Assembly: GCA_017462785.1 (NCBI GenBank)
Contig: JAFTQJ010000100.1
Span: 1 to 34,325 of the forward strand
Source: Oscillospiraceae bacterium
Lineage (GTDB): Bacteria; Bacillota; Clostridia; Oscillospirales; Ruminococcaceae
Reading direction: 5' to 3'
DNA length: 34,325 bases
Below the pieces are notes generated by a model. That model worked only from the letters and a program-made list of their open reading frames with translations. It made no database searches and was not told the DNA's origin. Below are positions 17,336 to 34,281 of this stretch, in pieces. Position 1 is the stretch's first letter. Each line of letters begins with the position of its first letter. Made by a program: the position numbers and the translations under genes.

Positions 17336-17348
17336 ATATCTGTAATTG

Positions 17349-17432: not shown

Positions 17433-17446
17433 GCAGAAAGTTTCAG

Positions 17447-19188: not shown

Positions 19189-20250
19189 ATGGCAAAATCG
19201 GCATTGATCGCCATGAGCGGCGGCGTGGACAGCTCAACGGCGGCACTCCTGATGCAGCAGCAGGGGTATTCCTGTGTGGGGGCAACCATGAAGCTGTTCC
19301 GCACGGGGGATATTGTCTGTGAACGCACATGCGGTGCCCCCGATGATGCTGCCGATGCGGCGGCTGTGGCGGCAAGGCTCGGCATGGAGCATCATGTGTT
19401 TGATTTTTCGGAGCAGTTCCGTGAGCATGTCATGACGCAGTTTGTGCAGACCTACGAAAACGCCGGAACTCCCAATCCCTGCATTGAGTGCAACCGCTTT
19501 CTGAAATTCGGGTGCATGATCGAAAAGATGCATGAGCTGGGGCTGGAGCATGTTGTGACCGGACATTATGCACGGGTGGAGTATGACGAAAAATACGGCT
19601 GTTTTGCGTTAAAAAAGGCGGTGGATGCCGCAAAGGACCAGACGTATTTTCTCTACACGCTCACACCGGAACAGCTGCAATACGTCCGCTTTCCGCTGGG
19701 AGCACTGGAGAAAGCCGAGGTTCGCCGCATTGCGGAGAAAAACGGCTTTGTCACGGCGAAGAAAAAGGAAAGTCAGGACATCTGTTTTGTACCGGACGGG
19801 GATTATGCCGGATTCATTGAGCGTTTTTCCGGAAAGAGCTTTCCGGAGGGCGATTTCACGGATATGCAGGGCAACGTGCTCGGTACGCACAAGGGACTGA
19901 TCCACTACACCATCGGTCAGCGGAAAGGGCTGGGCGTAGCAGTCGGACATCCGGTCTATGTGTGCCGGATCAATGCGGAAAACAATACCGTCACACTCGG
20001 AGAAAACGAGGATCTCTACACGGACAGCGTGACTGCACGGAGGGTGAACCTCATCACCGATCTGCGTGAGCCGGTGCGTGTGCTTGCCAAGATCCGCTAC
20101 CGGCACAAGGAACAGCCGGCAGCGGCATGGCAGGATGCGGACGGGCTGCTGCATGTACAGTTTGATGAACCGCAGAGAGCCGTCACAAAGGGGCAGGCAG
20201 TCGTCCTGTACGATGGGGATACCGTCATCGGCGGCGGCGAAATTCTATAA
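19189..20250 (+). CDS. mnmA: tRNA-specific 2-thiouridylase
   Basis: 353 residues. MnmA adenylates and thiolates U34 of tRNA-Lys, tRNA-Glu and tRNA-Gln in the cytoplasm, taking sulfur from a persulfide carrier. The PP-loop SGGVDS is at residues 10-15. The catalytic cysteines are visible as Cys101 in NPCIECNRFLKFG and Cys199 in ESQDICFVPDGDY. The C-terminal beta-barrel region contains TIGQRKGLGVAVG. The GGGAGG ribosome site overlaps the last codons of nadA, so translation is coupled. The stop is followed three bases later by a hairpin repeat element and then a terminator. Confidence 0.97.
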   Translation: MAKSALIAMSGGVDSSTAALLMQQQGYSCVGATMKLFRTGDIVCERTCGAPDDAADAAAVAARLGMEHHVFDFSEQFREHVMTQFVQTYENAGTPNPCIECNRFLKFGCMIEKMHELGLEHVVTGHYARVEYDEKYGCFALKKAVDAAKDQTYFLYTLTPEQLQYVRFPLGALEKAEVRRIAEKNGFVTAKKKESQDICFVPDGDYAGFIERFSGKSFPEGDFTDMQGNVLGTHKGLIHYTIGQRKGLGVAVGHPVYVCRINAENNTVTLGENEDLYTDSVTARRVNLITDLREPVRVLAKIRYRHKEQPAAAWQDADGLLHVQFDEPQRAVTKGQAVVLYDGDTVIGGGEIL

Positions 20251-20252
20251 AT

Positions 20253-20377
20253 AAAGGAGGAAGTCCTTTGGCGGGTTGAGGGTACGCAGTACCCTCGCAA
20301 TATAGCCCCTCCCCCTCGGGGGGAGGGGGAGGGGTGGGGGCAGCTTTGGGGTGCTAATCCCAGAAAAAAGACTTTTT
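20253..20377 (+). repeat. modular hairpin element, copy A
   Basis: Four hairpins in a row: AAAGGA/TCCTTT (20253-20269), GAGGGTAC/GTACCCTC with loop GCA (20278-20296), CCCCTCCCCC/GGGGGAGGGG (20306-20328), and GGGGT/ATCCC (20348-20361, one G-T pair). An A-run and a T-run follow. Bases 20318-20340 hold four G-runs suited to a G-quadruplex. It starts three bases after the mnmA stop. Confidence 0.75.
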
Positions 20378-20389
20378 TGACAAGCTGAA

Positions 20390-20430
20390 ACGAGCTTCTG
20401 CATGCGTGATGCAGAAGCTCGTCATTTTTA
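20390..20430 (+). terminator. intrinsic terminator of the nadA-mnmA operon
   Basis: A 14-bp perfect stem (20390-20403 with 20409-20422), loop GCGTG, followed by CATTTTTATA. It lies against the convergent gene ending at 20428 and may also help end that transcript. Confidence 0.85.
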
Positions 20431-21354
20431 TAAGCCGATTAAAGCAGTTCCGAATCCAAGAAAACCAAACAGAAACAGGATTGCTGAGAGGATCAGACCT
20501 GCAATACAAATTCCCTTGGCTTTTTTCAGCTCTTCCTTCTGATGTCCGGATAACTGAGCAGGATCATTCTCCAGCTTGCTTGCTTTGGAAAGACCAATGA
20601 TCGCCAGTGCCAGACTGACCATGTTGCAGCCGCATCCGATCACACCGAACACAATGCTCACAATGCCCAATGTCCTGATGGTATTGATCGCAGATGTAAC
20701 GCTGTCCCCCGTCTGTGTGCCGTTACTGCTGAAGTTTGCCGGCTGCGGTACATTGGTGTCATTCACCCGCTGTCTGGGAACGGGAGCAGACGGAGTATGC
20801 ATCGGCTTCTCCGATTCCACATAATTCGTGCCGTTCCAGCTGTAATGACCGGAAAATGCTGCCGGATCATCCTCGGAGGGTACGGGCTTCGGAATGGCAT
20901 TCGCAGGCTTTGCCGCATCCACGGAAGGCATGGGGGTATCATCGGAAGAGAAATCAAAATCCTTCGGCTTCTGCGGAAGCACCGGCTGCGGCGTAACGGT
21001 CGGCTGGGGAATCACAGCCGGCTGGGGTGCAGCCGCAGGTCGGGGTGAAGCTGCGGATCTCGGAGGGGGTGTCACCACGGGCGGCGGCGTAACGACTGCC
21101 GGCTTGGGCATATCCACCTCGTCAATGCTCGGTACATCAAAATCGCTGTCAATCTCCGGAATGTCAAAATCCTGATAGCTGTCAGGCGATGCGGCAGGAT
21201 CGGGAATGCTGTCCAGACCGCCGAGCGTCGTGGAGGAACCATTCAGAAAATCACTGTCATAGGTTGACGGTGATGCCGCCGGATCGGGAAGCGAGGAACT
21301 GTCCCCGAATCCAAAACCATCGGAGGATGTGCCAAAAAGATCCTTGTCGTCCAT
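20428..21354 (-). CDS. proline-rich protein with C-terminal DUF4190-like membrane hairpin
   Basis: 308 residues. The N-terminal two-thirds is disordered. It starts acidic, with a twice-used PDPAASPxxY motif (about residues 23-32 and 57-66), and continues as a proline-rich stretch of PQP and TPPP units (about 85-130). The last 85 residues hold two membrane helices joined by a charged loop. This end is similar to the protein at 21774-22106: LALAIIGLSKAS matches VILGIIGLVKAN, with a comparable loop and second helix. No catalytic motif is visible. It is the last gene of a three-gene operon. AAGGAG lies seven bases before ATG. A signalling or envelope role is possible but not shown. Confidence 0.75.
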   Translation of the reverse strand: MDDKDLFGTSSDGFGFGDSSSLPDPAASPSTYDSDFLNGSSTTLGGLDSIPDPAASPDSYQDFDIPEIDSDFDVPSIDEVDMPKPAVVTPPPVVTPPPRSAASPRPAAAPQPAVIPQPTVTPQPVLPQKPKDFDFSSDDTPMPSVDAAKPANAIPKPVPSEDDPAAFSGHYSWNGTNYVESEKPMHTPSAPVPRQRVNDTNVPQPANFSSNGTQTGDSVTSAINTIRTLGIVSIVFGVIGCGCNMVSLALAIIGLSKASKLENDPAQLSGHQKEELKKAKGICIAGLILSAILFLFGFLGFGTALIGL

Positions 21355-21365
21355 ATTTTTACTCC

Positions 21366-21773
21366 TTACTCAATCGGCAGCATTGCCGGTACAAAATTAC
21401 GAATCAGATTCCAGATGAACTGGATCGCCAGTACGGTCATCCAGAATGCGAGCTTTCTTGGGAGAATTTTGATTGGCTTTCCTAGTGCTGCGGCACATTT
21501 TTCAATGTACACCAAAAAGAGCACCACAAGCAGCAGAGGGGCAGCAGGATTGTTATGGAATGCACGGGGAATGTCGCCGTGCAGCAGAGCCATCATGCTC
21601 CGTGTTCCGCCGCATCCCATGCAGTACAGTCCGGTCGTTTTGTGAAAAACACAGAACATAATGTGATCTGCCGCCCACTGTGCGATCGGAACAAGAAAGT
21701 CACGGCATAAATAGCCGATGATCAGCACCAGGGGCGGCAGCCACAAAACAGCATATTGTTTCAGCTTATGCAC
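21366..21773 (-). CDS. DUF2752 membrane protein
   Basis: 135 residues, three to four predicted helices. The family signature CMGCGGTRSMMALLHGD (residues 51-67) is intact, with the following HNNPAAPLL. The biochemical role of the family is unknown to me. The start is GTG at 21773, directly after the stop codon of the upstream gene with no clear ribosome site of its own, so it is probably translated by re-initiation. DUF2752 genes commonly sit beside small two-helix membrane proteins, as here. Confidence 0.85.
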   Translation of the reverse strand: MHKLKQYAVLWLPPLVLIIGYLCRDFLVPIAQWAADHIMFCVFHKTTGLYCMGCGGTRSMMALLHGDIPRAFHNNPAAPLLLVVLFLVYIEKCAAALGKPIKILPRKLAFWMTVLAIQFIWNLIRNFVPAMLPIE

Positions 21774-22106
21774 TTACATACCAGCTTCGGTCATCATGTT
21801 GTAGAGTGCATTGTTGCCGCTTACCATCATGATGATGTTGATCACGATCATGACTGCGGACATTGCAATTGCAACGATGCTGCAGATCTTTGCTACCTTG
21901 ACGTTCTTCTGTGCATCAGCGGAAAGATCCGGCAGCTTTGCCAGTCCATTTGCCTTTACAAGACCGATGATACCGAGGATGACACCTGCATAAGTACAGC
22001 ACAGACCGCACACGATACCTACAATACCGATGATCATTGCGTTCTTTGCACGCTTGTCAGCTTCCGGATCCCCCGTGGGTACAAAGCCATTGTTCATTTC
22101 GTCCAT
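21774..22106 (-). CDS. small two-helix membrane protein, DUF4190/CD225-like
   Basis: 110 residues. A short polar N-terminus (MDEMNNGFVPTGDPEADKRA) is followed by two membrane segments: a Cys- and Gly-rich one (IIGIVGIVCGLCCTYAGVIL) and a second near residues 78-97. The loop between them matches the paralogue at 20428-21354. ATG at 22106 has GAGGAG eight bases upstream and is preferred over a TTG two codons earlier. It is the first gene of the three-gene operon. Its function is not known. Confidence 0.8.
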   Translation of the reverse strand: MDEMNNGFVPTGDPEADKRAKNAMIIGIVGIVCGLCCTYAGVILGIIGLVKANGLAKLPDLSADAQKNVKVAKICSIVAIAMSAVMIVINIIMMVSGNNALYNMMTEAGM

Positions 22107-22131
22107 AATCAATTCTCCTCACTCTTTTTTT

Positions 22132-22178
22132 ACCGTTTTTCGACAGATTCATTTTCGAAAACGGTTTCTTTTATTATA
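22132..22178 (-). promoter_or_regulatory. extended -10 promoter and leader hairpin of the membrane-protein operon
   Basis: On the minus strand, TGCTATAAT (hexamer 22173-22178) forms an extended -10, with a poor -35. The leader then folds as ACCGTTTT/AAAACGGT plus inner pairs (22132-22164). Confidence 0.6.
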
Positions 22179-22262
22179 GCACAGTACTAAAAGAGAAATA
22201 TAGATTTTTTGTGAACTAAATATGAAATTTTGGATAATTCAATGCAAATATACCGATTTTAG

Positions 22263-22292
22263 ATAAAAAAGAACCTGCGGTGCTTCCGCAGG
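22263..22292 (-). terminator. terminator-like hairpin between divergent operons
   Basis: CCTGCGG (22274-22280) pairs with CCGCAGG (22286-22292), and on the minus strand it is followed by TTCTTTTTT. There is no minus-strand gene directly upstream, so it may insulate the leftward operon from antisense transcription. The remainder of 22179-22314 shows no gene. Confidence 0.5.
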
Positions 22293-22314
22293 AAAAGAAA
22301 AGTCTGGCACGGGC

Positions 22315-22343
22315 TTGACAAAAGACAAAAAACATGGTATAGT
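22315..22343 (+). promoter_or_regulatory. promoter of the ACT-hom operon
   Basis: TTGACA (22315-22320), a 17-base spacer and TATAGT (22338-22343). Confidence 0.85.
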
Positions 22344-22403
22344 ATAGAGAGCGAATACAATTGTACTTTCTACACGGACGTTTTGTGAATCAGGAGGAAT
22401 CGT

Positions 22404-22847
22404 ATGGAACACCGGACACAATTGATTGTGGTGGATGCATCCGTTCTGCCGGAGGTCATCAGCAAAGTGCTGGAGGTCAAAAAGCTGCTTGCCGGCAGGG
22501 AGGAAAAAAGCTCCGCTGCTGCATGCAAGCGTGTGGGGATCTCACGCAGTGCGTATTATAAATACAAAAATTGTGTGTATTCCTATGAGGATAAGATCAC
22601 ACAGCGTATCATCAACCTGCAGGCCGTTCTGCGTGATGAGGCAGGCGTTCTGTCCAATGTGCTTTCTGCTCTCTATGATGCGGATGCCAATATTCTGACG
22701 GTGAATCAGAATATCCCTATTGACAGCGTTGCTTCCGTCACGTTTTCAGTGCGTCTGAACGGTGAGGTACAATCCCCCCATCAGCTTGAAGCTGTACTGC
22801 GTACAGTGCAGGGCGTGGTGGATGTGAAAATACTTTCAGGGGAATAA
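22404..22847 (+). CDS. pheB: ACT-domain protein, PheB/UPF0735 type
   Basis: 147 residues. The N-terminal half holds a short helix-turn-helix-like segment (about residues 40-58: ACKRVGISRSAYYKYK). The C-terminal half is an ACT domain (about 74-145: DEAGVLSNVLSALYDADANI and VQGVVDVKIL), a fold that binds amino acids as an allosteric switch. The gene lies directly before homoserine dehydrogenase and shares its promoter, so it probably senses an aspartate-family or aromatic amino acid. Whether it binds DNA or the neighbouring enzyme is not known. AGGAGG lies six bases before ATG. The gene symbol follows the Bacillus homologue and is tentative. Confidence 0.85.
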   Translation: MEHRTQLIVVDASVLPEVISKVLEVKKLLAGREEKSSAAACKRVGISRSAYYKYKNCVYSYEDKITQRIINLQAVLRDEAGVLSNVLSALYDADANILTVNQNIPIDSVASVTFSVRLNGEVQSPHQLEAVLRTVQGVVDVKILSGE

Positions 22848-22882
22848 TGGCAGTTTTGCCCAAGATTTAGGAGGATATGAAA

Positions 22883-24115
22883 ATGGAAAAATTTGCGGTA
22901 CTTGGCTGCGGCGTAGTTGGCTCCGGCGTGGTCGAGCTGTTTGAAAAGAACAAGGCACTCATCGAAAAAAGATGCGGCAAGTCCCTTGCACTGGGTTATA
23001 TTCTTGATCTGCGTGATTTTCCGGACAGACCCTACGGCGACAAGGTCGTCAAGAACATTGATGTGATCCTTGCGGACAAGGATGTTACAGTTGTTGCTGA
23101 ATGCATGGGCGGCGTGGAGCCGGCATTCACATTTGTCAAGTCCTGTCTGGAGGCAGGCAAGAGCGTTTCCACCTCCAACAAGGAGCTGGTTGCAAAGAAG
23201 GGCGATATTCTGCTGCAAACTGCTAAGGAGCACAATGTCAACTTCTTCTTTGAGGCAAGCGTCGGCGGTGCGATCCCGATCATCCGCCCGATGCACAAGT
23301 GTCTGGCTGCGAATGCATTCTCCGCAGTTGCAGGCATTCTGAACGGTACGACCAATTTCATCCTGAACAAGATGATCTGTGATGATATGGATTTTGCAGC
23401 AGCTCTCAAGCTTGCACAGGAGCTGGGCTATGCAGAAAAGGATCCGACAGCGGACGTTGAGGGTCATGATGCATGCCGCAAGATCTGCATTCTCTCCTCT
23501 CTGGCATTCGGTAAGCATGTGTATCCGGAGTCCGTTTACACCAAGGGCATCCGTGAGGTAGAGCTGAAGGACACCAAGCTCTGTGAGCAGCTCGGCTATG
23601 CCATCAAGCTGATCGCACAGGTGAAGGCACTCGAAAACGGCAAGATCCTGCCGACTGTCATGCCGATGGCTGTGAAGAACACGAACCTGCTCTCTCAGGT
23701 GAATGACGTATTCAATGCCGTGATGACCGACACGGACGGTGCTGACCGTTCCATGTTCTACGGCAGAGGTGCCGGCAAATTCCCGACTGCAAGTGCGGTG
23801 CTCGGCGACATGATCGAGCAGTTCCAGCTTGATGGCACGATCTGTGCACAGACATGGGAAAGTGCTGAAAACACGGACTTTATCGAAGATTTCTCCGCAT
23901 TTGCCGCAAAGCGTTATTTCCGTACCAGTGCAGCGGATGTCAAGCTGCTGGCTGAGGTACTGGGTGATGTGGATGAAAAGACCATTTCCACGGATGAGGA
24001 CGAAACCGTCTGCATCGTGAATACAGAGATGAACGCAGCACAGGTGGATGCCGCTGTCAAGGCACTGGCACAGAAGGGCGTACAGGTGCTGGCACAGTAT
24101 CCGGTACTGGAATGA
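22883..24115 (+). CDS. hom: homoserine dehydrogenase
   Basis: 410 residues. It reduces aspartate semialdehyde to homoserine with NAD(P)H in the cytoplasm, leading to threonine and methionine. The nucleotide-binding motif GCGVVGSG is at residues 8-15. TSNKELVAKKG, GILNGTTNFIL and DPTADVEGHDACRKICIL are family signatures around the substrate and catalytic lysines. A C-terminal ACT-like region follows (about 345-410). ATG at 22883 is preferred: AGGAGG is eight bases away, while the ATG at 22877 lies only two bases from it. It shares aspartate semialdehyde with the polyamine route encoded further right. Confidence 0.96.
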   Translation: MEKFAVLGCGVVGSGVVELFEKNKALIEKRCGKSLALGYILDLRDFPDRPYGDKVVKNIDVILADKDVTVVAECMGGVEPAFTFVKSCLEAGKSVSTSNKELVAKKGDILLQTAKEHNVNFFFEASVGGAIPIIRPMHKCLAANAFSAVAGILNGTTNFILNKMICDDMDFAAALKLAQELGYAEKDPTADVEGHDACRKICILSSLAFGKHVYPESVYTKGIREVELKDTKLCEQLGYAIKLIAQVKALENGKILPTVMPMAVKNTNLLSQVNDVFNAVMTDTDGADRSMFYGRGAGKFPTASAVLGDMIEQFQLDGTICAQTWESAENTDFIEDFSAFAAKRYFRTSAADVKLLAEVLGDVDEKTISTDEDETVCIVNTEMNAAQVDAAVKALAQKGVQVLAQYPVLE

Positions 24116-24150
24116 TCTCTCTGCAATAACAGAATATCATCAGAAGCTGA

Positions 24151-24174
24151 GCCTCCCGCAAAGGGAGGCTTTTC
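24151..24174 (+). terminator. intrinsic terminator after hom
   Basis: GCCTCCC (24151-24157), loop GCAAA, GGGAGGC (24163-24169), then TTTTCT. Confidence 0.85.
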
Positions 24175-24222
24175 TGCATAAAATCCAACAAAATCGGCAT
24201 TGTGCTTTGTTCAATCTGAACA

Positions 24223-24251
24223 TTGACTTATGTCGAAAAATGTGATATAAT
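24223..24251 (+). promoter_or_regulatory. promoter of the lipoprotein gene
   Basis: TTGACT (24223-24228), a 17-base spacer and TATAAT (24246-24251) with TG one base upstream (extended -10). The leader of about 120 bases carries no riboswitch that I recognise. Confidence 0.85.
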
Positions 24252-24381
24252 GTTAATAGTCTATTCATATTGGGAAAATATGTGGATTTTTGGGCAAAAG
24301 CTGCCGGAGAAATGCATATGAATTCTCGATATGAGCGGACAGAAAGACATTTTTATCAGGATGAAGGGAAGGTAACGATTT

Positions 24382-25506
24382 ATGAAAAAGACTCTGAGAA
24401 GCCTTGCAGCAGTATCCGCACTCTGCCTTTGCGTATCTGCATCTGCATGCGGCAAGAAGAGCGTGAATGTCACCGAAAATCTGGAAATCAAATTCAACGG
24501 CTATGACGGCTATGCAACTGCAAGCCTGCTCAATTCCACCGATTGGATCTCCAATGTAGTCACCACCTATGGTGAGGGCATGGACATGACACAGCTTGCA
24601 ATGCTCGAAGCAAATCTCTATGATGCAGTGGACTTTGACATTGTGCCGGCTGAGGATATTTCCAACGGCGATGAGATCACAGTAACAGTCACTGTGGACA
24701 ACACCAAGTTTGAGGATCAGAAGTTCCAGCTTGAGGGCGGTACAGTCACATTTACCGCAGAGGGACTTGAAGAAGTGGAAACATTCGATCCTTTCACCGG
24801 TCTTAACCTCACCTATGAGGGCTTTGCACCGAACGGTACTGCCTATATCAGCAGTTCTTCCGATGCAAACCTGTCCTTCTCCATGGACAAGAGCACAGGT
24901 CTGTCAAACGGTGACACGATCACAGTAACTGCTGAAACCTATACAGGCGTTTCCATGGAAGAGTTCTGTGCACAGTACGGCAAGATGCCTTCCGTCACTG
25001 AAAAGACCTTCACAGTAGAGGGACTTCCGGCATATGCTTCTGAAATCGCAGAGATTCCGGAGGAAATGATGCAGAAGATGGATACACAGGCACAGGACGT
25101 ATTCAAGGCAAGCGTTGCAAGAGAATGGGACGAGCCGGAGGGTCTGCAGAGCATCACACTGCTCGGTCACTACTTCCTCAAGCCCAAGGACATCAACACA
25201 GAGCTGTCCCCGTTCAACAAGCTCTATCTGGTATATGAGGTAAAGGCAAACAACAGCAATATCGGCGACTTCACCTATTTCTACTACACCAGATTCGAGA
25301 ATATCATCCTGCTGGATGACGGTACATGCTCCGTGGATCTGAGCAATTATACCACTCCCGGCAACTCCTGCGTGGTTGGTACATATCCCGGCTTCATTTT
25401 CGAGAACACTCTTTACGCAGACGGCTACAACGATCTTGACAGCCTGTTCAACAACTGCGTGACCACACAGATCGACAAGTATGCATATGAATCCACTGTA
25501 AAGTAA
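24382..25506 (+). CDS. putative lipoprotein of unknown function with repeated beta-rich domains
   Basis: 374 residues. A signal sequence (MKKTLRSLAAVSALCLCVSA) ends at SAC, with Cys23 as the likely lipid-attachment site. Alanine at -3 is atypical for a lipobox. Two related beta-rich units follow: residues about 35-130, ending in GDEITVTVTVDNTKF and a strand pair, and about 135-215, containing GDTITVTAETY. They suggest Ig-like domains. A third region (about 255-370) has a different character, with LYLVYEVKANN and FTYFYYTRFENI. I do not recognise the family. The protein should sit on the outer face of the membrane. It has its own promoter and terminator. Confidence 0.75.
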   Translation: MKKTLRSLAAVSALCLCVSASACGKKSVNVTENLEIKFNGYDGYATASLLNSTDWISNVVTTYGEGMDMTQLAMLEANLYDAVDFDIVPAEDISNGDEITVTVTVDNTKFEDQKFQLEGGTVTFTAEGLEEVETFDPFTGLNLTYEGFAPNGTAYISSSSDANLSFSMDKSTGLSNGDTITVTAETYTGVSMEEFCAQYGKMPSVTEKTFTVEGLPAYASEIAEIPEEMMQKMDTQAQDVFKASVAREWDEPEGLQSITLLGHYFLKPKDINTELSPFNKLYLVYEVKANNSNIGDFTYFYYTRFENIILLDDGTCSVDLSNYTTPGNSCVVGTYPGFIFENTLYADGYNDLDSLFNNCVTTQIDKYAYESTVK

Positions 25507-25522
25507 TCTGCGATATATCAAC

Positions 25523-25557
25523 AAAAATCTGCTGCACGGAATGTGCAGCAGATTTTT
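25523..25557. terminator. bidirectional intrinsic terminator
   Basis: A 15-bp stem (25523-25537 with 25543-25557), loop GGAAT, with an A-run before and a T-run after. It separates the lipoprotein gene from the convergent zinc-ribbon gene. Confidence 0.92.
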
Positions 25558-25570
25558 TTATGCATTGGAA

Positions 25571-26032
25571 TCAGTCGTTTGCAACTGCCGCAACCTCGGA
25601 GCCGTCAGCATCCACAACCACTGTTTCAGCCGGCTCAACCGGAGCTGCTTCCTGTACAGTTTCCTGCTTTGTGCCGCAGTGCGGGCAGAACTTCTGACCT
25701 TCCTGTACATACTTGCCGCAGTTGTCGCAGAGTGCGGCACTGTCAATGGCTGCCAGCTCTGCTCTTGCAGCTGCGATCTTTGCTCTTGCATCTGCAACCT
25801 CTGCGAGCATCTGTGCAAAATCAGCTTCACCCTTGTTGCCGTAGATTTCCTCGTACTTCTTGCCGATCTCGATATATGCTGCATTCAGGCTGCTCTCTGC
25901 CTGAGAAATTGCACGCTTGATCTTTGCCTTTTCAGCCATCTTCTTGGATGTATCAATGGTGCCCTTTGCAAACTTTTCTGCGGAATTCTTAATATCTCCG
26001 CCGATCTTCATAATGGTTTCTTTCATTTCCAT
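25571..26032 (-). CDS. small zinc-ribbon protein with helical N-terminus
   Basis: 153 residues. The first 98 are helical and charged (coiled-coil-like, about 38-98). A zinc ribbon with two CxxC knuckles follows (Cys102, Cys105, Cys116 and Cys119: LCDNCGKYVQEGQKFCPHCG), then an acidic, Ala- and Val-rich tail. No membrane segment is present. Similar double-CxxC ribbons occur in many uncharacterised Firmicutes proteins and do not point to one function. The start at 26032 is set by GGAGG eight bases upstream; 12 in-frame upstream codons lack support. It has its own promoter. Confidence 0.82.
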   Translation of the reverse strand: MEMKETIMKIGGDIKNSAEKFAKGTIDTSKKMAEKAKIKRAISQAESSLNAAYIEIGKKYEEIYGNKGEADFAQMLAEVADARAKIAAARAELAAIDSAALCDNCGKYVQEGQKFCPHCGTKQETVQEAAPVEPAETVVVDADGSEVAAVAND

Positions 26033-26087
26033 GTTGGTAACCTCCAATCGTTGCTTGAACTGCTGCACTGTGCGGCAGTATACATTC

Positions 26088-26116
26088 AGTGTAACATATT
26101 ATCATTGTAAAGTCAA
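26088..26116 (-). promoter_or_regulatory. promoter of the zinc-ribbon gene
   Basis: On the minus strand, TTGACT (26111-26116) and TACACT (26088-26093) are separated by 17 bases. Confidence 0.7.
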
Positions 26117-26166
26117 GGCATAATTTGTTAATTTGTGTGACAAATGGGTGTAATCAGGAGTTTTTG

Positions 26167-26280
26167 GCTTTTTTCTGAGTAAGCACTCCGCAGCTGCCCC
26201 ACCCCCTGCCCCCTCCCCGATGGGGAGGGGGAATCTGAGCCGGTGCTCCGCACCGGCACCGGCAAGGACGATCGTCCTTT
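26167..26280 (-). repeat. modular hairpin element, copy B
   Basis: On the minus strand: palindrome AAGGACGATCGTCCTT (26264-26279), GCCGGTGC/GCACCGGC with loop GGA (26239-26257), CCCCCTCCCC/GGGGAGGGGG (26209-26231), and GAGT/ACTC (26177-26188), then CAGAAAAAAG. The order of parts is the same as in copy A. It starts 26 bases after the stop of the last gene of the polyamine operon. G-runs at 26197-26225 on the minus strand could form a quadruplex. Confidence 0.75.
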
Positions 26281-26306
26281 GAACCAATTGACGTATTTCT
26301 ATGAAA

Positions 26307-26564
26307 TCAGGGGTTTTCGTGTTCTGCCAGCAGGTCGGCAAATTCCTGCATCTGTCCGTCATCCGTCCGGAACACCAGCACGAAGTCCTTGCAGCGTTCA
26401 GTGCCGGTGTCGGTCAGCTGTTCGGGGGAAAGGGCATCGAACAGCTGCTGTGCATGCTCCGTTTCCGGATCAAAGGCACAATCGAGGGGCTGTCCGTCCA
26501 CATAGAGCTGTTTTTCATAGCTGCCGTTCTTCTTCCGGCAGGTCAGCTTGATCTTCCGCATCAT
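26307..26564 (-). CDS. small protein of unknown function at the end of the polyamine operon
   Basis: 85 residues, charged and soluble, with no membrane segment. It starts basic (MMRKIKLTCRKKNGSYEKQL) and ends acidic (FADLLAEHENP). The predicted order is strand-strand-helix-strand-helix. I do not recognise the family. ATG lies four bases after the aguB stop, with AGGTG just upstream, so it is translated together with the polyamine genes. It could be a regulator or a stability factor of one of the enzymes, but nothing in the sequence shows this. Confidence 0.65.
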   Translation of the reverse strand: MMRKIKLTCRKKNGSYEKQLYVDGQPLDCAFDPETEHAQQLFDALSPEQLTDTGTERCKDFVLVFRTDDGQMQEFADLLAEHENP

Positions 26565-26568
26565 GCAC

Positions 26569-27447
26569 CTACTTTTCTGTGATCACACTGTAGCGGTCGG
26601 GTCTGCGATCACGGAAAATTCCCCAGCTCAGACGATCCTGTGCGAGTGCATCCAGATCAAACTCCGCCGTAATCACAGCATCACCGTCCCTGCCGGACTG
26701 CACGAGCAGTGCACCCGTATTGTCGGCAATGAAGGAGGAGCCGTAGAATTGCAGTGCGGAGGTCTGACCTCCATTCTCCGTGCAGGGCTGTACTTCCTCC
26801 AGACCATAGCGGTTGGCAGCGATCACGGGCATGAGGTTTGCCGCCGCATGTCCCTGCATGCAGCGTGTCCAGTGGGGCATGCTGTCGGTTTCGAGGATGG
26901 GTTCCGAACCGATGGCAGTCGGGTAGAAAAGCAGCTCCGCACCGTTCAGAGCGAGTGCACGGGCTGTTTCCGGAAACCACTGATCCCAGCAGATGCCGAT
27001 GCCGATCTTCGCATATCTCGTATCCCAGACACGGAATCCGGTGTCACCGGGGGTGAAGTAGAATTTCTCCTGATAGTAATGGTCGTCAGGAATGTGGGTC
27101 TTGCGGTATACGCCGAGTACCGTTCCATCCGCATCAATGACGGCGATGGAATTGAACAGCCGCAGACCGTCACGCTCATAGAAGCTCACGGGCAGGACCA
27201 CGCCGAGTTCTGCGGCAAGCTTTGCAAAGTGCTGTACTGCGTCGTTTTCCTCCGTGCTCTTGGCAAAATCATAGTATTCGTACTGACGCTCCTGACAGAA
27301 ATACTGACGCTCGAACAGCTCCGGCAGGAGGATGATATTTGCTCCCTTTGCGGCAGCCTCACGGACGAGCGTTTCTGCATGGACGATGTTTTCATAAATA
27401 TTGCGGGTGCAGTTCATCTGCACGGCAGCAACAATGACTTTTCTCAT
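26569..27447 (-). CDS. aguB: N-carbamoylputrescine amidase
   Basis: 292 residues, nitrilase/C-N hydrolase family. It hydrolyses N-carbamoylputrescine to putrescine, CO2 and ammonia in the cytoplasm. The catalytic triad is visible: Glu43 (LLPELFERQYFCQ), Lys116 (YRKTHIPDDHYYQEKFYF) and Cys153 (GIGICWDQWFPETARALAL). These surrounding sequences are diagnostic for AguB within the family. AAGGAG lies six bases before ATG. It follows aguA by 14 bases, which supplies its substrate. Confidence 0.97.
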   Translation of the reverse strand: MRKVIVAAVQMNCTRNIYENIVHAETLVREAAAKGANIILLPELFERQYFCQERQYEYYDFAKSTEENDAVQHFAKLAAELGVVLPVSFYERDGLRLFNSIAVIDADGTVLGVYRKTHIPDDHYYQEKFYFTPGDTGFRVWDTRYAKIGIGICWDQWFPETARALALNGAELLFYPTAIGSEPILETDSMPHWTRCMQGHAAANLMPVIAANRYGLEEVQPCTENGGQTSALQFYGSSFIADNTGALLVQSGRDGDAVITAEFDLDALAQDRLSWGIFRDRRPDRYSVITEK

Positions 27448-27461
27448 GATGCACTCCTTTA

Positions 27462-28634
27462 TTATTCTGCCTTCCTATGCTTCGCAAAAGTCGGCACGGA
27501 TTTCTCTGTTGCCAGCGGCGGCTCGCCGCCTTTCGGAATCTGCTGTGTGATACAATGGATATTGCCGCCGCCGACAATGATCTCCCTTGCAGGGATCTTC
27601 ACGATCTCACGTTCCGGAAAGAGACTTCCGAGAATTGCGGCGGCTCTCTCGTCACTCTCCGCATTCTCACCGCCGAACTGCGGCAGGAGAATCGCATGAT
27701 TGCAGATATAAAAATTCACATAGGATGCCGCCAGCCGTTCGCCGGCTTCACGGGTATCCTCGCCCTCCTCGAATTCATAGCCGTCCATGTCGGATTCCTC
27801 CACGCAGACGGGCACATCCGGAATCGGGAGCTTGTGCACGGTGAATGATCTGCCCTTTGCATCGGTTTCGGTTTTCAGCACATCCATGCATGCCGCAGAC
27901 AGCGGATACTGCGGATCATTTGCATGATCCGTCCACGCAAGCACGACTTCCGCAGGCTTTACAAATGCACAGACATTGTCCACATGTTCGTTGGTTTCGT
28001 CATTGTAAATGCCACGGGGCAGCCAGATGACCTTTTCCGCACCGAGGTATTGTTTCAGCGTTTCGGTGATCTGCTCCTTGGACATATGGGGATTTCTTCC
28101 CTCACTGAGCAGACAGCTTTCTGTGACGAGGATCGTTCCCTCGCCGTCGGAATGGATCGAACCGCCCTCCAGCACAAAATGCTGTGCATCGTAGCAGTCC
28201 GCACCGACTGCCTCACAGAATGCAGAAGCCAGTGCATTGTCCTCCTCCCAATGGGCATAGAGTCCGTCAAACTCGCCGCCCCACGCATTGAACTGCCAGT
28301 CGATGCCACGCAGCTTCCCCTCGTCATTCACGACAAAGGTCGGGGCGGTATCCCTTGCCCATGCGTCATTCTGGGGGATGGTGAGAATGCGGATATTCGG
28401 CGTAGCTCCGAGCATTTCCTCCGCATGCTCCCTCTGTGCTTCACTTGTGAGGACATACATCATTTCGGATTTTGCGATCTCCCTCATGATGCGGCAGAAG
28501 ATCTCCTGTGCTTTCGGGAGGTCACTCCAAGAGCCTTTGCGTTCGGGGAAGATCATGATGGTGCCGTGGTGCGGTGCAAATTCCGCCGGCATATGGAATC
28601 CGTCGGCTTTCGGGATGGTGTGCAGTTTCGTCAT
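27462..28634 (-). CDS. aguA: agmatine deiminase with a repeat-derived C-terminal tail
   Basis: 390 residues. It converts agmatine to N-carbamoylputrescine and ammonia in the cytoplasm (guanidino-group-modifying fold). Key stretches are [12 protein letters not shown] (about 106-117), [22 protein letters not shown] and the catalytic [13 protein letters not shown] with Cys361. Family members usually end shortly after this motif. Here 23 further residues ([11 protein letters not shown] and a basic end) are encoded by bases that include a GC-rich inverted repeat (27511-27530) also found between genes at 31171-31191. The gene overlaps the preceding gene by four bases (ATGA) and is followed by aguB. 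Confidence 0.97.
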
Positions 28635-29749
28635 GACAATCTCTCCTTGAAATCAGAATAGCCGAAGGTTTTCACCGTTTCGCAGCTGCCGTCCGTGCGG
28701 AGGATGCCGATTTCCGGCAGGGGCATGCCGTTGAACGTGTTGTTCTTGACCATCGAATAGATCGCCATATCCTCAAAACAGAGCCGGTCGCCGATGGAAA
28801 GGGGCTGATCAAAGCTGTAATCGCCGATGATGTCACCGGCAAGGCAGGTGCAGGAGGACAGACGGTAGGTGTACGGCTTCTCCCCTGCTTCGCCGCTTGC
28901 AAAGAGGGGCGGTCGGTAGGGCATTTCGAGCACATCGGGCATGTGGCAGGCGGCGGATGCATCGAGAATGGCGATCTGCATGCCGTTTTCCACGATGTCC
29001 ATGACCTCCGTCACGAGGTAGCCCGCACGCAGGGCGATGGCTTCGCCGGGTTCGAGGTAGACCTGCACATCATATTTTTGCTGGAATTCCACAACGAGAT
29101 GTTCAAGCAGTGGAATATCGTAGTCGGGGCGTGTGATATGATGACCGCCGCCGAAATTCACCCATTTGCATTTGCGGAGGTAGTCACCGAATTTTTCCTC
29201 AACCGCTTTGAGCGTGATTTCAAGGGCATCGGCATTCTGCTCGCAGAGGGTATGGAAGTGCAGACCGTCCACATCGGGGAATGCCGTCAGGTCACTGGCT
29301 CTCACGCCAAGGCGTGAACCGACGGCACAGGGGTCGTAGATGGCGGCTTCCTGCGTGGAGCATTCCGGATTGATGCGAAGTCCCACGCTCTTTCCGGCAT
29401 CACGGCACATACTGCCGAACTTGTCCAGCTGACGCAGGGAATTGAACACGATATGGTCGGAAACATCCAGAATTTCGGGCATATCCGCATCCTTGTACGC
29501 AGGAGAAAAGATGTGCACCTCCCCTGCAAATTCCTCCCGTCCGAGCTTTGCTTCATACAGTCCGCTGGCGGTCGTGCCGGAGAGGTATTTTGCGATCAGG
29601 GGATAGACCGAAAACATGGAGAATGCTTTCTGTGCGAGGAGGATTCTGCATCCGGTGCGGTCTTGTACGCCCTTTAAAATCTCCAGATTGGAAATGAGTT
29701 TCGCTTCATCCAGAATATAGGATGGTGTGGGAAATTGGTTCAGGTTCAT
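28631..29749 (-). CDS. nspC: carboxynorspermidine/carboxyspermidine decarboxylase
   Basis: 372 residues, alanine-racemase fold PLP decarboxylase. It removes the carboxyl group of carboxyspermidine (or carboxynorspermidine) to give the polyamine. Lys41 in [11 protein letters not shown] should hold [27 protein letters not shown] and [14 protein letters not shown] are typical of the family. ATG at 29749 is chosen, with AAGGAAG seven to eight bases upstream; the longer in-frame TTG start overlaps that site. A hairpin (29764-29804) lies in the 71-base gap after the dehydrogenase gene. The stop overlaps the aguA start. Confidence 0.94.
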
Positions 29750-29763
29750 TTGGTTTCTTCCTT

Positions 29764-29804
29764 TCAAAAAGGATGGGGAGGGATTTGTGAAATCACCCCT
29801 CCCC
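29764..29804 (-). terminator. hairpin with T-run inside the polyamine operon (possible attenuator)
   Basis: On the minus strand GGGGAGGG pairs with CCCTCCCC, with an inner ATTT/AAAT stem and a three-base bulge, then ATCCTTTTTG. It could reduce transcription into nspC, aguA and aguB, or mark an mRNA end. Confidence 0.5.
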
Positions 29805-29820
29805 TTATACAGATTTTTGT

Positions 29821-31074
29821 TTAGTCAACTAACACAGGATTCTCATCCACAACCCACGGCAGACCGTACTTGTTCAGTGCATCCATGAACGGATCGGGAT
29901 CGAATTCTTCCACGTTGAACACGCCAGCCTTTGCCCAGATGCCGCTTGCCACCAGAGAAGTACCGATCACTGCCGGAACACCGGTAGTGTAGGAAACAGC
30001 CTGTGCACCGGTTTCCTTGTAGCATTCCTGATGGTCGCAGACATTATAAATATAGATGGTACGCTCCTTGCCATCCTTGATACCACGGAAGATACAGCCG
30101 ATATTGGTCTTGCCGACGGTTCTCGGTCCGAGTGTGGACGGATCGGGGAGGAGGGCTTTCAGGAATTTGATCGGGACGATCTCATGACCCTCAAATTCCA
30201 CCGGAGTTGTGCCGAGCATGCCGACATTCTGGAGGCAGTTCATGTGCATCAGATAGCTCTGACCGAATGTCATGAAGAAGCGGATCCTCTTGACATTGGG
30301 GATATTCTTTGCAAGGGACTCGATTTCCTCGTGATGCAGGAGGTACATATCCTTCATGCCCACGCCCTCGAAATTGTATTCACGCTTGATTTCCATCGGC
30401 TCTGTTTCCACCCACTTGCCGTCTTCCCAGTAAGAACCGTTTGCGGATACTTCACGGAGGTTGATTTCCGGATTGAAGTTCGTTGCAAACGGATAGCCGT
30501 GGTCGCCGCCGTTGCAGTCAAGGATGTCAATGTAGTGGATCTCGTCGAAATAGTGCTTCTGTGCATATGCTGCAAAGACGCTGGTCACACCCGGATCGAA
30601 GCCGGAGCCGAGGAGTGCAGTCAGACCAGCCTGCTGGAATTTCTCCTGATATGCCCACTGCCAGGAATAGTCAAAATATGCTGTGAATCCCTTTTCCTCG
30701 CATCTCTTTTCATAGATGGCACGCCACTCGGGATCATCGGTATCCTCTGCCTCATAGTTTGCAGTATCCACATAGTTTGCACCGCAGGCAAGGCAGGCAT
30801 CCATGATGGTGAGATCCTGATAAGGAAGTGCAACATTCAGGACGGTGTGGGGCTTGTACTCGTTCATGAGGGCAACGAGGGAATCCACGCTGTCCGCATC
30901 CACCTGTGCGGTGGTGAGCACTGCATTTGTGGTCGGGCGAAGCTTTTCTGCGAGGGCATCGCACTTGGATTTTGTTCTGCTTGCAATGCAGATTTCAGTA
31001 AATACGGGGTTTGCACAGCACTTGTGGATTGCAACGGTCGCAACGCCGCCGCAGCCGATAACTAACAGTTTCAT
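29821..31074 (-). CDS. carboxynorspermidine/carboxyspermidine synthase (saccharopine dehydrogenase family)
   Basis: 417 residues. It joins a diamine (putrescine or diaminopropane) to aspartate semialdehyde and reduces the imine with NAD(P)H. The N-terminal nucleotide-binding motif GCGGVATVA (residues 8-16) and the ANYVDTANYEAED and GSGFDPGVTSVFAAY stretches identify the family. The next gene is the matching decarboxylase, so the pair forms the aspartate-semialdehyde route to spermidine. AAGGAG lies eight bases before ATG. The gene is separated from speE by 300 bases of hairpin repeats, unusual in the middle of an operon. It could have its own transcript end or start there. Confidence 0.93.
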   Translation of the reverse strand: MKLLVIGCGGVATVAIHKCCANPVFTEICIASRTKSKCDALAEKLRPTTNAVLTTAQVDADSVDSLVALMNEYKPHTVLNVALPYQDLTIMDACLACGANYVDTANYEAEDTDDPEWRAIYEKRCEEKGFTAYFDYSWQWAYQEKFQQAGLTALLGSGFDPGVTSVFAAYAQKHYFDEIHYIDILDCNGGDHGYPFATNFNPEINLREVSANGSYWEDGKWVETEPMEIKREYNFEGVGMKDMYLLHHEEIESLAKNIPNVKRIRFFMTFGQSYLMHMNCLQNVGMLGTTPVEFEGHEIVPIKFLKALLPDPSTLGPRTVGKTNIGCIFRGIKDGKERTIYIYNVCDHQECYKETGAQAVSYTTGVPAVIGTSLVASGIWAKAGVFNVEEFDPDPFMDALNKYGLPWVVDENPVLVD

Positions 31075-31121
31075 AGGTAATTCTCCTTTTCGTAGTTGAT
31101 TGTTTTGCGGTCACTGTATGG

Positions 31122-31268
31122 GGGACGCTGTCCCTTGCGACCTTTGCGGCTTGCCGCATTGGGAGCAGAATGTCAGCGGCGACTCGCCGCCCCCTGCCAA
31201 AGGGATGGAATCCCTTTGGAATCCCATGGCGTTTTCCCATTGCCCCCTGCGGGGACAAAGGGAAAACG
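31122..31268 (-). repeat. hairpin array, partial copy D of the modular element
   Basis: Five inverted repeats in a row between speE and the dehydrogenase gene: GGGAC/GTCCC (31122-31134), TGCGGC/GCCGCA (31145-31158), GCGGCG/CGCCGC (31176-31190), CCAAAGGGA/TCCCTTTGG (31197-31219), and CGTTTTCCC/GGGAAAACG with an inner CCCC/GGGG (31230-31268). On the minus strand the AAAGGGA stem followed by GGC and the GCGGCG stem matches the first two modules of copies A-C. The G-rich third stem is missing. The rest of 31075-31374 holds a further palindrome (31346-31362) and no gene. Confidence 0.65.
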
Positions 31269-31345
31269 TTAAGATTGCAAGCGTTCCATTCTTGACAGAA
31301 GTATGAGAACAGTGTTCCATACCGTATCGCAAACTATAAATATGA

Positions 31346-31362
31346 ATGGGGAAATTCCCCAT
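31346..31362. repeat. perfect palindrome after speE
   Basis: ATGGGGAA, one base, TTCCCCAT, 13 bases beyond the speE stop. It lacks a T-run on the minus strand, so it is not a normal terminator for speE. An RNA-stabilising 3' hairpin is possible. Confidence 0.45.
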
Positions 31363-31374
31363 AAAAATTGTGAT

Positions 31375-32286
31375 TTATTCGATCTCGTCGAAGCTGGAAT
31401 TGAGCACTCGACCTTCGGAGGGAAGCCGTCTGCGTTCCTCCGCCTCTTCCAGCAGATCTTCCACAGATTTCGGGAGCATGAATGCTCCGGTGTGGAGGTT
31501 GGTGGTGTAGTACCATGTCTGCAAGCCCCTTGCTTTCCAGCGTGCGGCATCGAGATCATGCAGAGGATGGTATTTCTTGGACGCAAAGCCGAACAGCCAG
31601 TAGCCGGACGGACAGGTCGGGATATGTGCCTGATACACACGGCTGATCGGGAAACAGCGGAATGCTCTCCGGTGCATCGCCGTGCATGCCTCCTCATCCT
31701 CATCGAAGAACGGACTGCCGTGCTGGTACACCATGATGCCGTCCTCTTTCAGTGCCTTGTAGCAGCTGCCGTAGAATTCTTTCGTGAAAAGTCCTGCCGT
31801 ATGCCCGAACGGGTTCGTGCTGTCATTGATGATGAGGTCGTATTCGTCCTCCTTACGCCGCAGGAACCGCAGACCGTCACGGTAGAAGATGTTGACACGC
31901 TCATCCTCCAGACCCTTTGCATTGTCGGGGAAAAACTCCTTGCAGACCTGCACGAAGAGTTCATCCGGTTCGACCACGTCAATGGATTCGATCTCATCAT
32001 AATGGGAAAGTTCCCTCGCTACGCCGCCGTCACCGCCGCCGATGACAAGGACTTTTTTCACATGGGGATGTACCGCCATCGGCACATGCACGATCATTTC
32101 ATCATAGGTGAACTCGTCCTTTTCTGAAAAGATCACACTGCCGTCCGATGTGACGAAACGACCGAATTCCTCAGATTCAAACACGTCAATCCGCTGGAAG
32201 TCACTTTCACCGGAAAACAGCTGTTTTTCCACACGGATGGACATTTTCACGTTATTGGTATGCAGTTCTGAAAACCAGAAATCCAT
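31375..32286 (-). CDS. speE: spermidine synthase homologue (aminopropyltransferase) with altered active-site motifs
   Basis: 303 residues. An N-terminal beta domain precedes a Rossmann methyltransferase-like domain. The nucleotide-binding GGGDGGVARELSHY (residues 83-96) and VVEPDEL (104-110) are well conserved. The motif usually read as DSxDPxGP is DSTNPFGH (Asp155 to His162), so the second aspartate is Asn158. The usual Gln after LDG and the Gln of YQEM are replaced (SDGSVIF, YDEM). These positions contact the amine or decarboxy-AdoMet in known enzymes, from memory. It lies three bases after speA, yet no speD (the source of decarboxy-AdoMet) is present. Its true substrate is therefore open. 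AAGGAG lies eight bases before ATG. Confidence 0.88.
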   Translation of the reverse strand: MDFWFSELHTNNVKMSIRVEKQLFSGESDFQRIDVFESEEFGRFVTSDGSVIFSEKDEFTYDEMIVHVPMAVHPHVKKVLVIGGGDGGVARELSHYDEIESIDVVEPDELFVQVCKEFFPDNAKGLEDERVNIFYRDGLRFLRRKEDEYDLIINDSTNPFGHTAGLFTKEFYGSCYKALKEDGIMVYQHGSPFFDEDEEACTAMHRRAFRCFPISRVYQAHIPTCPSGYWLFGFASKKYHPLHDLDAARWKARGLQTWYYTTNLHTGAFMLPKSVEDLLEEAEERRRLPSEGRVLNSSFDEIE

Positions 32287-32289
32287 CTG

Positions 32290-33744
32290 TTACTCTCCTT
32301 TCAGCACATTCAGCCTCTCCAGCTCCGGATCCTCCGGACCCTGCATGGAGCAGCCCTTTTCCTTGGCGTAGAGAATATAATCCACCAGCTCCGCTGTGAT
32401 CATCTCGCCGGGGGCAAGGATCGGGATGCCGGGGGGATAGCACATGACAAATTCTCCGCAGATGCGTCCAGCCGTTTCCCGAATGGGAATCAGCTCCTTT
32501 TCGGAGTAGAATGCTTTCTGGGGCGTAATGGCTACGATCGGGGAAATATACTCCGCATTGTGCATCTTGGACTTGTCACGGGAATAGAGCCGCTTGATGT
32601 CCTCCAGTGCACCCACCAGACGTTCAATGTCCTGAATGCGGTCGCCGATGGAGATGTACGCCAGAATATTGCCAATATCGCCGAATTCGATCTGGATGTC
32701 ATATTCATCACGCAGAAGGTCGTAGACCTCAATGCCCGTCAGACCAATGTCCCTTGTGTAGATGGAAAGCTTGGTGACATCATAGTTATAGATGCTGCTG
32801 CCGTTGACCAGATCCTTTCCGTAGGCATAGTAACCGCCGATGGAGTTGATCTCCTCCCTTGCATATTCTGCCATGCGGCTGACCTTTTCAAACGACTCCC
32901 TGCCTCGGAGGGCGAGATTTCGTCGGGAAATATCAAGGCTCGACAAAAGCAGATACGATGCACTTGTGGTCTGGGTGAGATTGATGATCTGTTCCACATA
33001 ACGCATGTTCATGCTCTGTCCGAGGAGCAGGAGCGAGCTTTGTGTCAGGCTGCCGCCGGATTTGTGCATGGACACCGCCGCCATATCCGCACCGGCTTCC
33101 ATTGCAGAAACGGGCAGATCTTCATGGAAATAGAGGTGCGTGCCGTGTGCTTCATCGACAAGGGCAAGCATGCCGTGATCGTGAGCCAGCTTCACAATGG
33201 AACGCAGGTCGGAGCAGATGCCGTAATAGGTCGGATTGTTGACAAAAATCGCCACAGCATCGGGATTTTCCTCAATGACACGCTCCACCTGTGAAAGCTC
33301 CATGCCCAGTGCAATGCCGATGTGACTGTCCACATCGGGGTTGACGTAGACCGGCTCCGCACCGCACAGAACAAGGGCATTGATGACGCTTTTGTGGACG
33401 TTTCTGGGGAGGATGATCTTGTCCCCTGCCTTGCATGCGGTCAGGATCATGGTCTGTACGGAGGAGGTCGTTCCCCCGACCATGAAGAAGGCATGTGCCG
33501 CACCGAAGGCATCCGCCGCAAGCTGTTCCGCCTCCAGAATGACGGAAACGGGGTGGCAGAGGTTGTCCAGCGGCTTCATGGAATTGACATCAATGCCGAC
33601 ACATTTTTCACCCAGAAGCTGCACAAGCTCGGGGTTTCCACGTCCCCGCTTGTGTCCGGGGACATCGAACGGCACAACACGCTGTTTCCGGAAGCGTTCC
33701 AACGCTTCATAGACCGGTGCGGACTTTTGTTTTTCAATATTCAT
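32290..33744 (-). CDS. speA: PLP-dependent arginine (Orn/Lys/Arg) decarboxylase, fold I
   Basis: 484 residues, the length of the shorter Firmicutes SpeA/YaaO class. PFDVPGHKRGRG (residues 25-36), PTYYGICSDL, the PLP-binding DEAH (197-200) and Lys228 in AVSMHKSGGSLTQSS are intact. A C-terminal domain with PPGIPILAPGE follows. The family includes arginine, lysine and ornithine decarboxylases that cannot be told apart by motif alone. The aguA and aguB genes in the same operon make arginine the likely substrate, with agmatine as product. It is the first gene of the operon. GAGGAAAAG lies before ATG. The upstream 580 bases contain a repeat element and a probable non-coding RNA. Confidence 0.92.
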   Translation of the reverse strand: MNIEKQKSAPVYEALERFRKQRVVPFDVPGHKRGRGNPELVQLLGEKCVGIDVNSMKPLDNLCHPVSVILEAEQLAADAFGAAHAFFMVGGTTSSVQTMILTACKAGDKIILPRNVHKSVINALVLCGAEPVYVNPDVDSHIGIALGMELSQVERVIEENPDAVAIFVNNPTYYGICSDLRSIVKLAHDHGMLALVDEAHGTHLYFHEDLPVSAMEAGADMAAVSMHKSGGSLTQSSLLLLGQSMNMRYVEQIINLTQTTSASYLLLSSLDISRRNLALRGRESFEKVSRMAEYAREEINSIGGYYAYGKDLVNGSSIYNYDVTKLSIYTRDIGLTGIEVYDLLRDEYDIQIEFGDIGNILAYISIGDRIQDIERLVGALEDIKRLYSRDKSKMHNAEYISPIVAITPQKAFYSEKELIPIRETAGRICGEFVMCYPPGIPILAPGEMITAELVDYILYAKEKGCSMQGPEDPELERLNVLKGE

Positions 33745-33786
33745 AGGCTTTTCCTCGTTCCTGTAGAATCACCCAAATCGGGTTCT

Positions 33787-33897
33787 AAGGGCATAGCCCT
33801 TGGTCGGCGGAGGCGGCGAAGCCGCCTCCACCATAAGCCCCTCCCCTCGGGGAGGGGCTGGGGTGGGGGGAAAGTTTCACAGAAACTCCCAAAAAAT
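33787..33897 (+). repeat. modular hairpin element, copy C
   Basis: AAGGGC/GCCCTT (33787-33801), GGAGGCGGC/GCCGCCTCC with loop GAA (33809-33829), AGCCCCTCCCC/GGGGAGGGGCT (33836-33859), AGTTTC/GAAACT (33873-33887), then CCCAAAAAA. The order is the same as in copies A and B. G-runs at 33849-33870 suit a quadruplex. It lies between the terminator of the candidate RNA and the speA start, reading opposite to speA. Confidence 0.75.
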
Positions 33898-34074: not shown

Positions 34075-34281
34075 AGAACCCCTGAAACCTTACAGTTTGA
34101 ATGGACTTTCCATTCTGATCATCTTATAAAATTTGTAAAATTTGGGCTTTGAACCCAATCAATAATGCAGCATTGAAGCTGCCATCGGCAATCCGACCCG
34201 CCTGTCCGTATGGGCTGTCTTTCCGCAGCTGCGGAAAGCGGTCGTGTGCGTAAGCTGTATCGCTTTAGTACGCTATATTGT

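Follow-up and report, generated by a model that had tools for sequence, protein, structure and literature searches.

Multi-hairpin elements flanked by duplicated hairpins in Ruminococcaceae, and their probable movement by an IS1182-family transposase

The 34,325-nt stretch of DNA analyzed here (the window) carries three copies of a module built from several hairpins, which raises the question whether such a module is maintained as an RNA fold or spread as a mobile element. A preliminary description held that the copies share one order of parts, and that both arms of their stems have changed together; it left a choice between a mobile non-autonomous family (REP- or MITE-like) and a structured 3′ UTR family. 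The common order is found in copies A, B and C. Each has a first stem, AAAGGA/TCCTTT (A), AAGGACGATCGTCCTT (B) or AAGGGC/GCCCTT (C), and a second stem, GAGGGTAC (A), GCCGGTGC (B) or GGAGGCGGC (C), in every case with its exact complement, followed by a C-run/G-run stem, G-runs, a fourth stem and an A-run. Folded as single strands and compared with dinucleotide shuffles, the copies have z values of -3.7 (A), -2.9 (B) and -4.8 (C), and 0, 1 and 0 of the 200 shuffles per copy, respectively, fold as well or better. The features are given below together with their matches to R1, a covariance model that covers stems 2 and 3 and rests on 33 cores, chosen by us among 67 distinct ones.

20253..20387, plus strand: copy A, right part of a probable type-1 MITE (stems 1-4 and right end); R1 match 20252-20342
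20373..20387, plus strand: right terminal inverted repeat of copy A, TTTTTTGACAAGCTG, exact
20390..20422, no strand assigned: terminator-like hairpin with a 14-bp stem, directly outside the right end of copy A
26167..26280, minus strand: copy B, B-type core with stem 2 GCCGGTGC; R1 match 26196-26281
33787..33897, plus strand: copy C, C-type core with stem 2 GGAGGCGGC; R1 match 33785-33871

As first described, copy A begins 3 nt past the stop codon of a 353-aa ORF (19189-20250, plus strand), which matches MnmA, and 26 bases separate copy B from an 85-aa ORF (26307-26564, minus strand). Copy A is longer than first described, extending to 20387, and is without about 28 bp of its left end. The hairpin outside its right end (20390..20422) lies between the convergent ORFs 19189-20250 (plus) and 20428-21354 (minus), and the left counterpart of this hairpin expected at copy A is absent. 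No recognizable terminal repeats were found at copy B (best 15-mers at 6 and 7 mismatches) or at copy C (6 mismatches in the best 15-mers), and target duplications were not seen at these two copies either. Copy C lies upstream of, and antisense to, a decarboxylase-like ORF (32290-33744, minus strand), whose matches to Orn/Lys/Arg decarboxylases are weak and all under cut-off. Also upstream of this ORF is a match to the SpF59 sRNA (ldcC RNA) at 34185-34244 on the minus strand (46.8 bits, gathering score 37.2), with copy C between the two in antisense orientation. The window also encodes an N-carbamoylputrescine amidase (26569-27447, minus strand; 447 bits), which, with the decarboxylase-like ORF, perhaps belongs to a polyamine gene cluster. 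A TPP riboswitch match at 17348-17446 (plus strand) scores slightly under the gathering score (52.5 vs 54.3 bits).

The three copies in the window are a mere share of a large, genus-wide multi-hairpin family. In the 2.58-Mb genome that contains the window (the host genome), R1 gives at least 113 matches (E ≤ 0.001), a lower bound because 116 of 1001 first-look candidates were scored. R1 matches occur in 18 of the 38 genomes of the genus, the host included. BLAST matches in the host genome number 46 for copy A, 37 for copy B and 42 for copy C, at cut-offs of 10, 0.001 and 0.001, respectively, and the match sets overlap. The covariance search that the preliminary description had proposed yields, then, many further copies in the host and genus genomes; a module confined to the three copies is excluded by the R1 matches, and pairing is mostly kept in the other copies rather than broken at random.

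Complete members are bounded by CAG..TGTC.AAAAA inverted repeats; those in the host genome have CAGTCTGTCGAAAAA at one side and the complement of CAGCTTGTCAAAAAA at the other. The outward end pattern, TTTTTYKACARRCTG, matches 111 times in the host genome vs 0 times in a backwards-read control. A family-level scan finds the pattern in 87 of 197 genomes, where one or a few matches per genome are at chance level because the control yields 0-4 per genome, and with up to 54 matches in other genera. The complete type 1 element is about 163 bp long and multi-hairpin, while type 2 measures about 290 bp and shares these ends but has other hairpins; a 243-base stretch of type 2 matches 17 of the 38 genus genomes, the host included. 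Loci with both ends (at most two mismatches each), taken with 45-nt flanks, gave 38 host spans; a single left end serves two of them. Of these, 31 are 159-165 bp long, five are 218-222 bp, one is 289 bp (type 2), and one, the second span of a single locus, is 240 bp. Being short, without a transposase gene and present in high copy (at least 113 cores in the host genome), the elements have the features of MITEs. Four type-1 elements of about 220 bp (L066, L112, L241 and L256) carry an extra hairpin module of about 57 bp inside the G-run tail. At loci L440-L446 (genomes G065 and G201), two terminal repeats stand face to face with 2-3 bases between them, 32-33 bp in all, with no clear duplication around them; one flank is common to the four G201 loci.

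In 21 of the 38 host spans (score ≥ 14), one unit of 19-36 nt is present in both flanks; mismatched flank pairs gave 0 of 760. Each of the 21 units forms a hairpin of at least 6 bp, and 20 beat all 100 mononucleotide shuffles. The duplicated unit is usually a terminator-like hairpin, with a T-run beyond the right-hand copy in 15 of 21 cases and an A-run ahead of the left-hand one in 11 of 21. Among the 17 spans without a duplication at this cut-off, L080 carries a pair of 27-bp hairpins that differ by a one-base deletion (score 12), L002, L112 and L256 have shorter repeats of 12, 11 and 9 bp, and L077, L251 and L098 have flank repeats of 5-7 bp, judged by eye; the remaining ones have nothing clear in their flanks. 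In relatives, a duplication of 17-36 nt is found in 34 of 47 candidate spans, some of the 47 being chance pairings of ends and three being, or carrying, IS copies. In 27 of the 34, both borders of the duplication are no more than 1 nt away from the hairpin base, and 32 of the 34 units fold better than all 100 shuffles. At least four T in the eight nucleotides directly after the hairpin are found at 28 of 42 outer junctions vs 9 of 42 inner ones, a difference that entry of the element between the stem and the T-tract would predict. The same architecture, ends and hairpin duplications recur in Ruminococcus sp. isolate SIG541 (L266, L285). At L163 (1501-1664), an element sits, with a duplication, at a hairpin resembling the stem of another family element; at L038 and L024, such a hairpin is in one flank only.

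Orthologous sites were compared at the RNase H gene beside host copy L051. This gene was found in 36 of the 38 genomes and 30 loci were read, four of which (host, G008, G016 and G009) were scored as filled or empty. Downstream of the gene stand hairpin, element and hairpin in the host, and a single hairpin, the empty counterpart of the host site, in G008; the hairpins of this pair have diverged, and the match, confined to the sequence beyond the hairpin, is close there. G016 has a different element of about 77 bp between two similar hairpins, and G009 has one hairpin of the G016 kind with nearly identical downstream sequence. These loci represent two filled/empty orthologue pairs, host/G008 and G016/G009.

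Which transposase might be responsible? The IS1182 transposase model NF033551 (cut-off 270 bits) has matches in 16 of the 38 genus genomes, over the cut-off in two, the host and G024. The host IS1182 copy (C50) encodes 355 aa, scores 272 bits and is open at the contig end; it is followed by a MITE-like right end, in which 3 of 15 bases differ from either MITE end, and then by a hairpin. A 1562-bp element in another genus of the family (L449, genome G062) has a full-length ORF of 482 aa belonging to the IS1182 family (389 bits) and a 39-bp hairpin at both sides, and its end, CAGCTTGTAGAAAAA, occurs also in the host MITE L073. Two further IS1182 copies have hairpin duplications, one of 1532 bp with an interrupted ORF (L211, genome G029; 31-bp duplication) and one of 1473 bp (L209/L168, genome G024; 33-bp duplication). 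The MITE ends CAGTCTGTCGAAAAA and CAGCTTGTCAAAAAA resemble the IS ends of relatives (CAGCTTGTAGAAAAA, CAGCCTGTCGAAAAA and CAGCCTGTCAAAAAA), and insertion at hairpins, published for IS1182 members, is seen here in the host (21 of 38) and in relatives (34 of 47). Transposases with such ends, for which a search had been suggested, occur in IS1182-family elements of relatives. No NF033551 match was found in G007 and G008, despite 47 and 172 end-pattern matches, respectively, either because these are draft assemblies or because the source has been lost. Two candidate autonomous elements were rejected: a 2.7-kb span at G008:C6 consists of two unrelated ends around ordinary genes, and L208 is a type-2 element whose internal ORFs resemble an IS3-type orfA/orfB pair.

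The complete members, with their ends, their hairpin duplications, two filled/empty pairs and IS1182 copies that have such ends and duplications, are very probably MITEs moved in trans by an IS1182-family DDE transposase that recognizes the CAG..TGTC.AAAAA ends and a hairpin target. The transposase would act in trans on the MITE ends, the chosen target would be hairpin-forming DNA, often terminator-like, and joining would leave the target hairpin on both sides of the element. The earlier suggestion of a mobile non-autonomous family stands for copy A and its complete relatives, on the strength of ends, duplications, empty sites and IS elements with such ends. In host copies of the B and C types, the core spans roughly GGRTTCAAAGG through the fourth stem, and no ends were seen around the B/C-type cores examined in the host genome. 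An array in G007 (L409, 4300-5500; G007:C32) has one terminator-like hairpin alternating with element copies. The elements of this array have a B-type core between TIR-like ends, and therefore the mobile form can carry a B core. Copies B and C may be family members whose ends have been lost, or relatives sharing this core; they may also have moved by another route.

A different mover could, in principle, leave long duplications: a wide and near-fixed stagger like the 24-29 bp of the IS1202 group, with the palindromic target a mere sequence preference. The lengths are partly in keeping with this proposal, as 44 of the 55 duplications measure 22-31 nt (host, 15 of 21; relatives, 29 of 34); however, they range overall from 17 to 39, with borders tracking the hairpin base, which argues against a fixed stagger. 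NF033594 (ISNCY_2), which we take to be the nearest model for an IS1202/ISNCY-type transposase, has 0 matches in the host, and among the 38 genomes it has weak matches in 10 and none over the cut-off. An IS1202-type mover was rejected for want of a host match to this model, and the IS elements bearing such ends belong to the IS1182 family, so that we consider the fixed-stagger explanation unlikely. Duplications of the IS1202 group measure 5-6, 15-17 or 24-29 bp (PMC10045372).

Another alternative is that the family is a structured 3′ UTR or cis-regulatory RNA under selection on the RNA fold, with mobility secondary. The claim that both arms have changed together is true: 98.2% of the stem 2 and stem 3 cells pair across 33 sequences chosen among the 67 distinct cores, counted for these two stems because stem 1 is in different registers. 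Changes on both sides occur in 6 of 17 pairs (stem 2, 5 of 8; stem 3, 1 of 9), and the covariation score is 0.264 vs 0.089 for shuffles, with slid controls at or below 0.095, which speaks for an RNA family. Two measures are less distinct, the 6 doubly changed pairs being equalled in 15 of 500 shuffles and the 15 further pair types in 55 of 500; the paired changes are subfamily-level events counted many times, and RNAalifold found few pairs on the 109-hit alignment. If an RNA strand is selected, G-U pairs are expected to outnumber the complementary A-C. Counted by alignment column over the 109 hits, stem 2 leans toward G-U (12 vs 5 A-C without the outermost column pair; 46 vs 5 with it, that pair being, in family A, largely a T-G next to the stem), again in favor of an RNA. 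Stem 3 leans the opposite way (9 G-U vs 14 A-C), stem 4 has 35 vs 54, and the stem 1 count is spoilt by register shifts. Among 106 distinct hairpins, counted at any stem position, G-U is not commoner than A-C (7 vs 9, with 12 other mismatches). Hence, of the proposed selection on the fold, the paired changes are real and the RNA-strand signal is mixed; selection on a DNA hairpin, or copying from arm to arm during replication, would fit the paired changes equally. Many stem 1 and stem 2 loops are C-GNA-G, a loop of particular stability in DNA. Of the 88 hits that reach 100 nt, 74 carry a four-tract G motif, the search profile itself containing the motif.

The TIR-less copies stand in mixed gene contexts. 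Some lie directly upstream of start codons, single cases that favor an RNA and suggested 5′ leaders; this idea was dropped on the mixed orientation of the right-hand gene beside 30 TIR-less host copies with 400-nt flanks, which by crude ORF calls is plus in 15, minus in 10 and uncalled in 5. At the gathering score, Rfam matches neither the three copies nor six other element loci. The association with 3′ UTRs looks like a by-product of target choice, that is, of terminator-like hairpins, and we regard an RNA family as the primary entity as quite improbable.

Very improbable is a REP-like core spread by a Y1 (RAYT) transposase, with the third stem and G-run tail as the REP unit: its motif, CCCCTCCCC..GGGGAGGGG..GGGGTGGGG, is dispersed in Sphingomonas, often as inverted pairs, and also in Prevotella, Phycisphaerae and others, but Y1 transposases (PF01797) number 0 in the host genome (87.9% complete) and occur in 2 of the 38 genus genomes, and complete elements, unlike REPs and REPINs, carry terminal inverted repeats and target duplications. 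The REP-like label holds only for the third stem and its tail of G-runs, which recur as a dispersed motif in distant phyla. Among the 80 of 118 stretches listed (L259-L338), AAGCCCCTCCCCTTCAGGGGAGGGGTTGGGGTGGGG occurs in many sphingomonads, often as inverted pairs, with variants in Prevotella, Phycisphaerae and others.

Hairpin targeting by the IS1182 family is already known from papers on IS1272, TnSha1 and ISCbo5 (PMC5678879, PMC4923244, PMC3098183). According to PMC5678879, IS1272 of staphylococci, an IS1182-family member, replaces inverted-repeat targets, and the legend of Fig. 13 in that paper draws a possible path whereby the entire stem-loop becomes duplicated through joining at the 5′ feet. 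TnSha1/IS1272, according to PMC4923244, inserts in hairpins with partial deletion and no target duplication, and five of the TnSha1 target hairpins are terminators by RNA-seq. The present family is similar in its probable IS1182-family transposase and in hairpin or inverted-repeat targets without primary-sequence preference (PMC5678879, PMC4923244). It differs in that the hairpin is duplicated rather than replaced or partly deleted, and in that the movers are high-copy and non-autonomous. For ISCbo5 (IS1182; Clostridium botulinum group III), all sites but one are gene-end hairpins, called likely transcription stop signals; it is an IS at 12-27 copies per chromosome, whereas the elements here are MITEs, and the word stem "duplicat" is absent from the main text of that paper (PMC3098183). 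The ISMac2 MITEs of Methanosarcina acetivorans (160 and 169 bp; 14 and 7 copies), with apparently 4-bp or no direct repeats, were assigned an IS1182 partner (PMC3852290, the main text of which contains neither "hairpin" nor "terminator"). They resemble the present elements in being MITEs of about 160 bp with an assigned or, here, probable IS1182 partner; the present ones often have hairpin duplications of 17-36 nt. In the open-licence literature searched (titles and abstract starts), no such family is named in Ruminococcus; nor was whole-hairpin duplication by high-copy non-autonomous elements found in the open-licence literature searched. What appears to be new here is a high-copy non-autonomous family that duplicates its target hairpins; hairpin targeting itself is published.

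As a tentative and rather doubtful extension, the family might form a self-building DNA-hairpin system, in which each insertion copies its target and creates new landing sites, leading to insertions into stems, arrays of the G007 type and gain of stems; the stems would be kept as DNA decoys that draw insertions away from genes, not as RNA. The 55 natural insertions (21 in the host, 34 in relatives) retain and double the hairpin, while the outcome for staphylococcal IS1272 is hairpin loss, and borders that follow the hairpin correspond to the path that was drawn, not demonstrated, in 2017 (PMC5678879). The family provides a large natural data set, including filled and empty sites, on how the structure of DNA may serve a DDE transposase as target. 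A way for a high-copy element to stay harmless is suggested as well: a terminator would be entered, and a terminator would be left behind.
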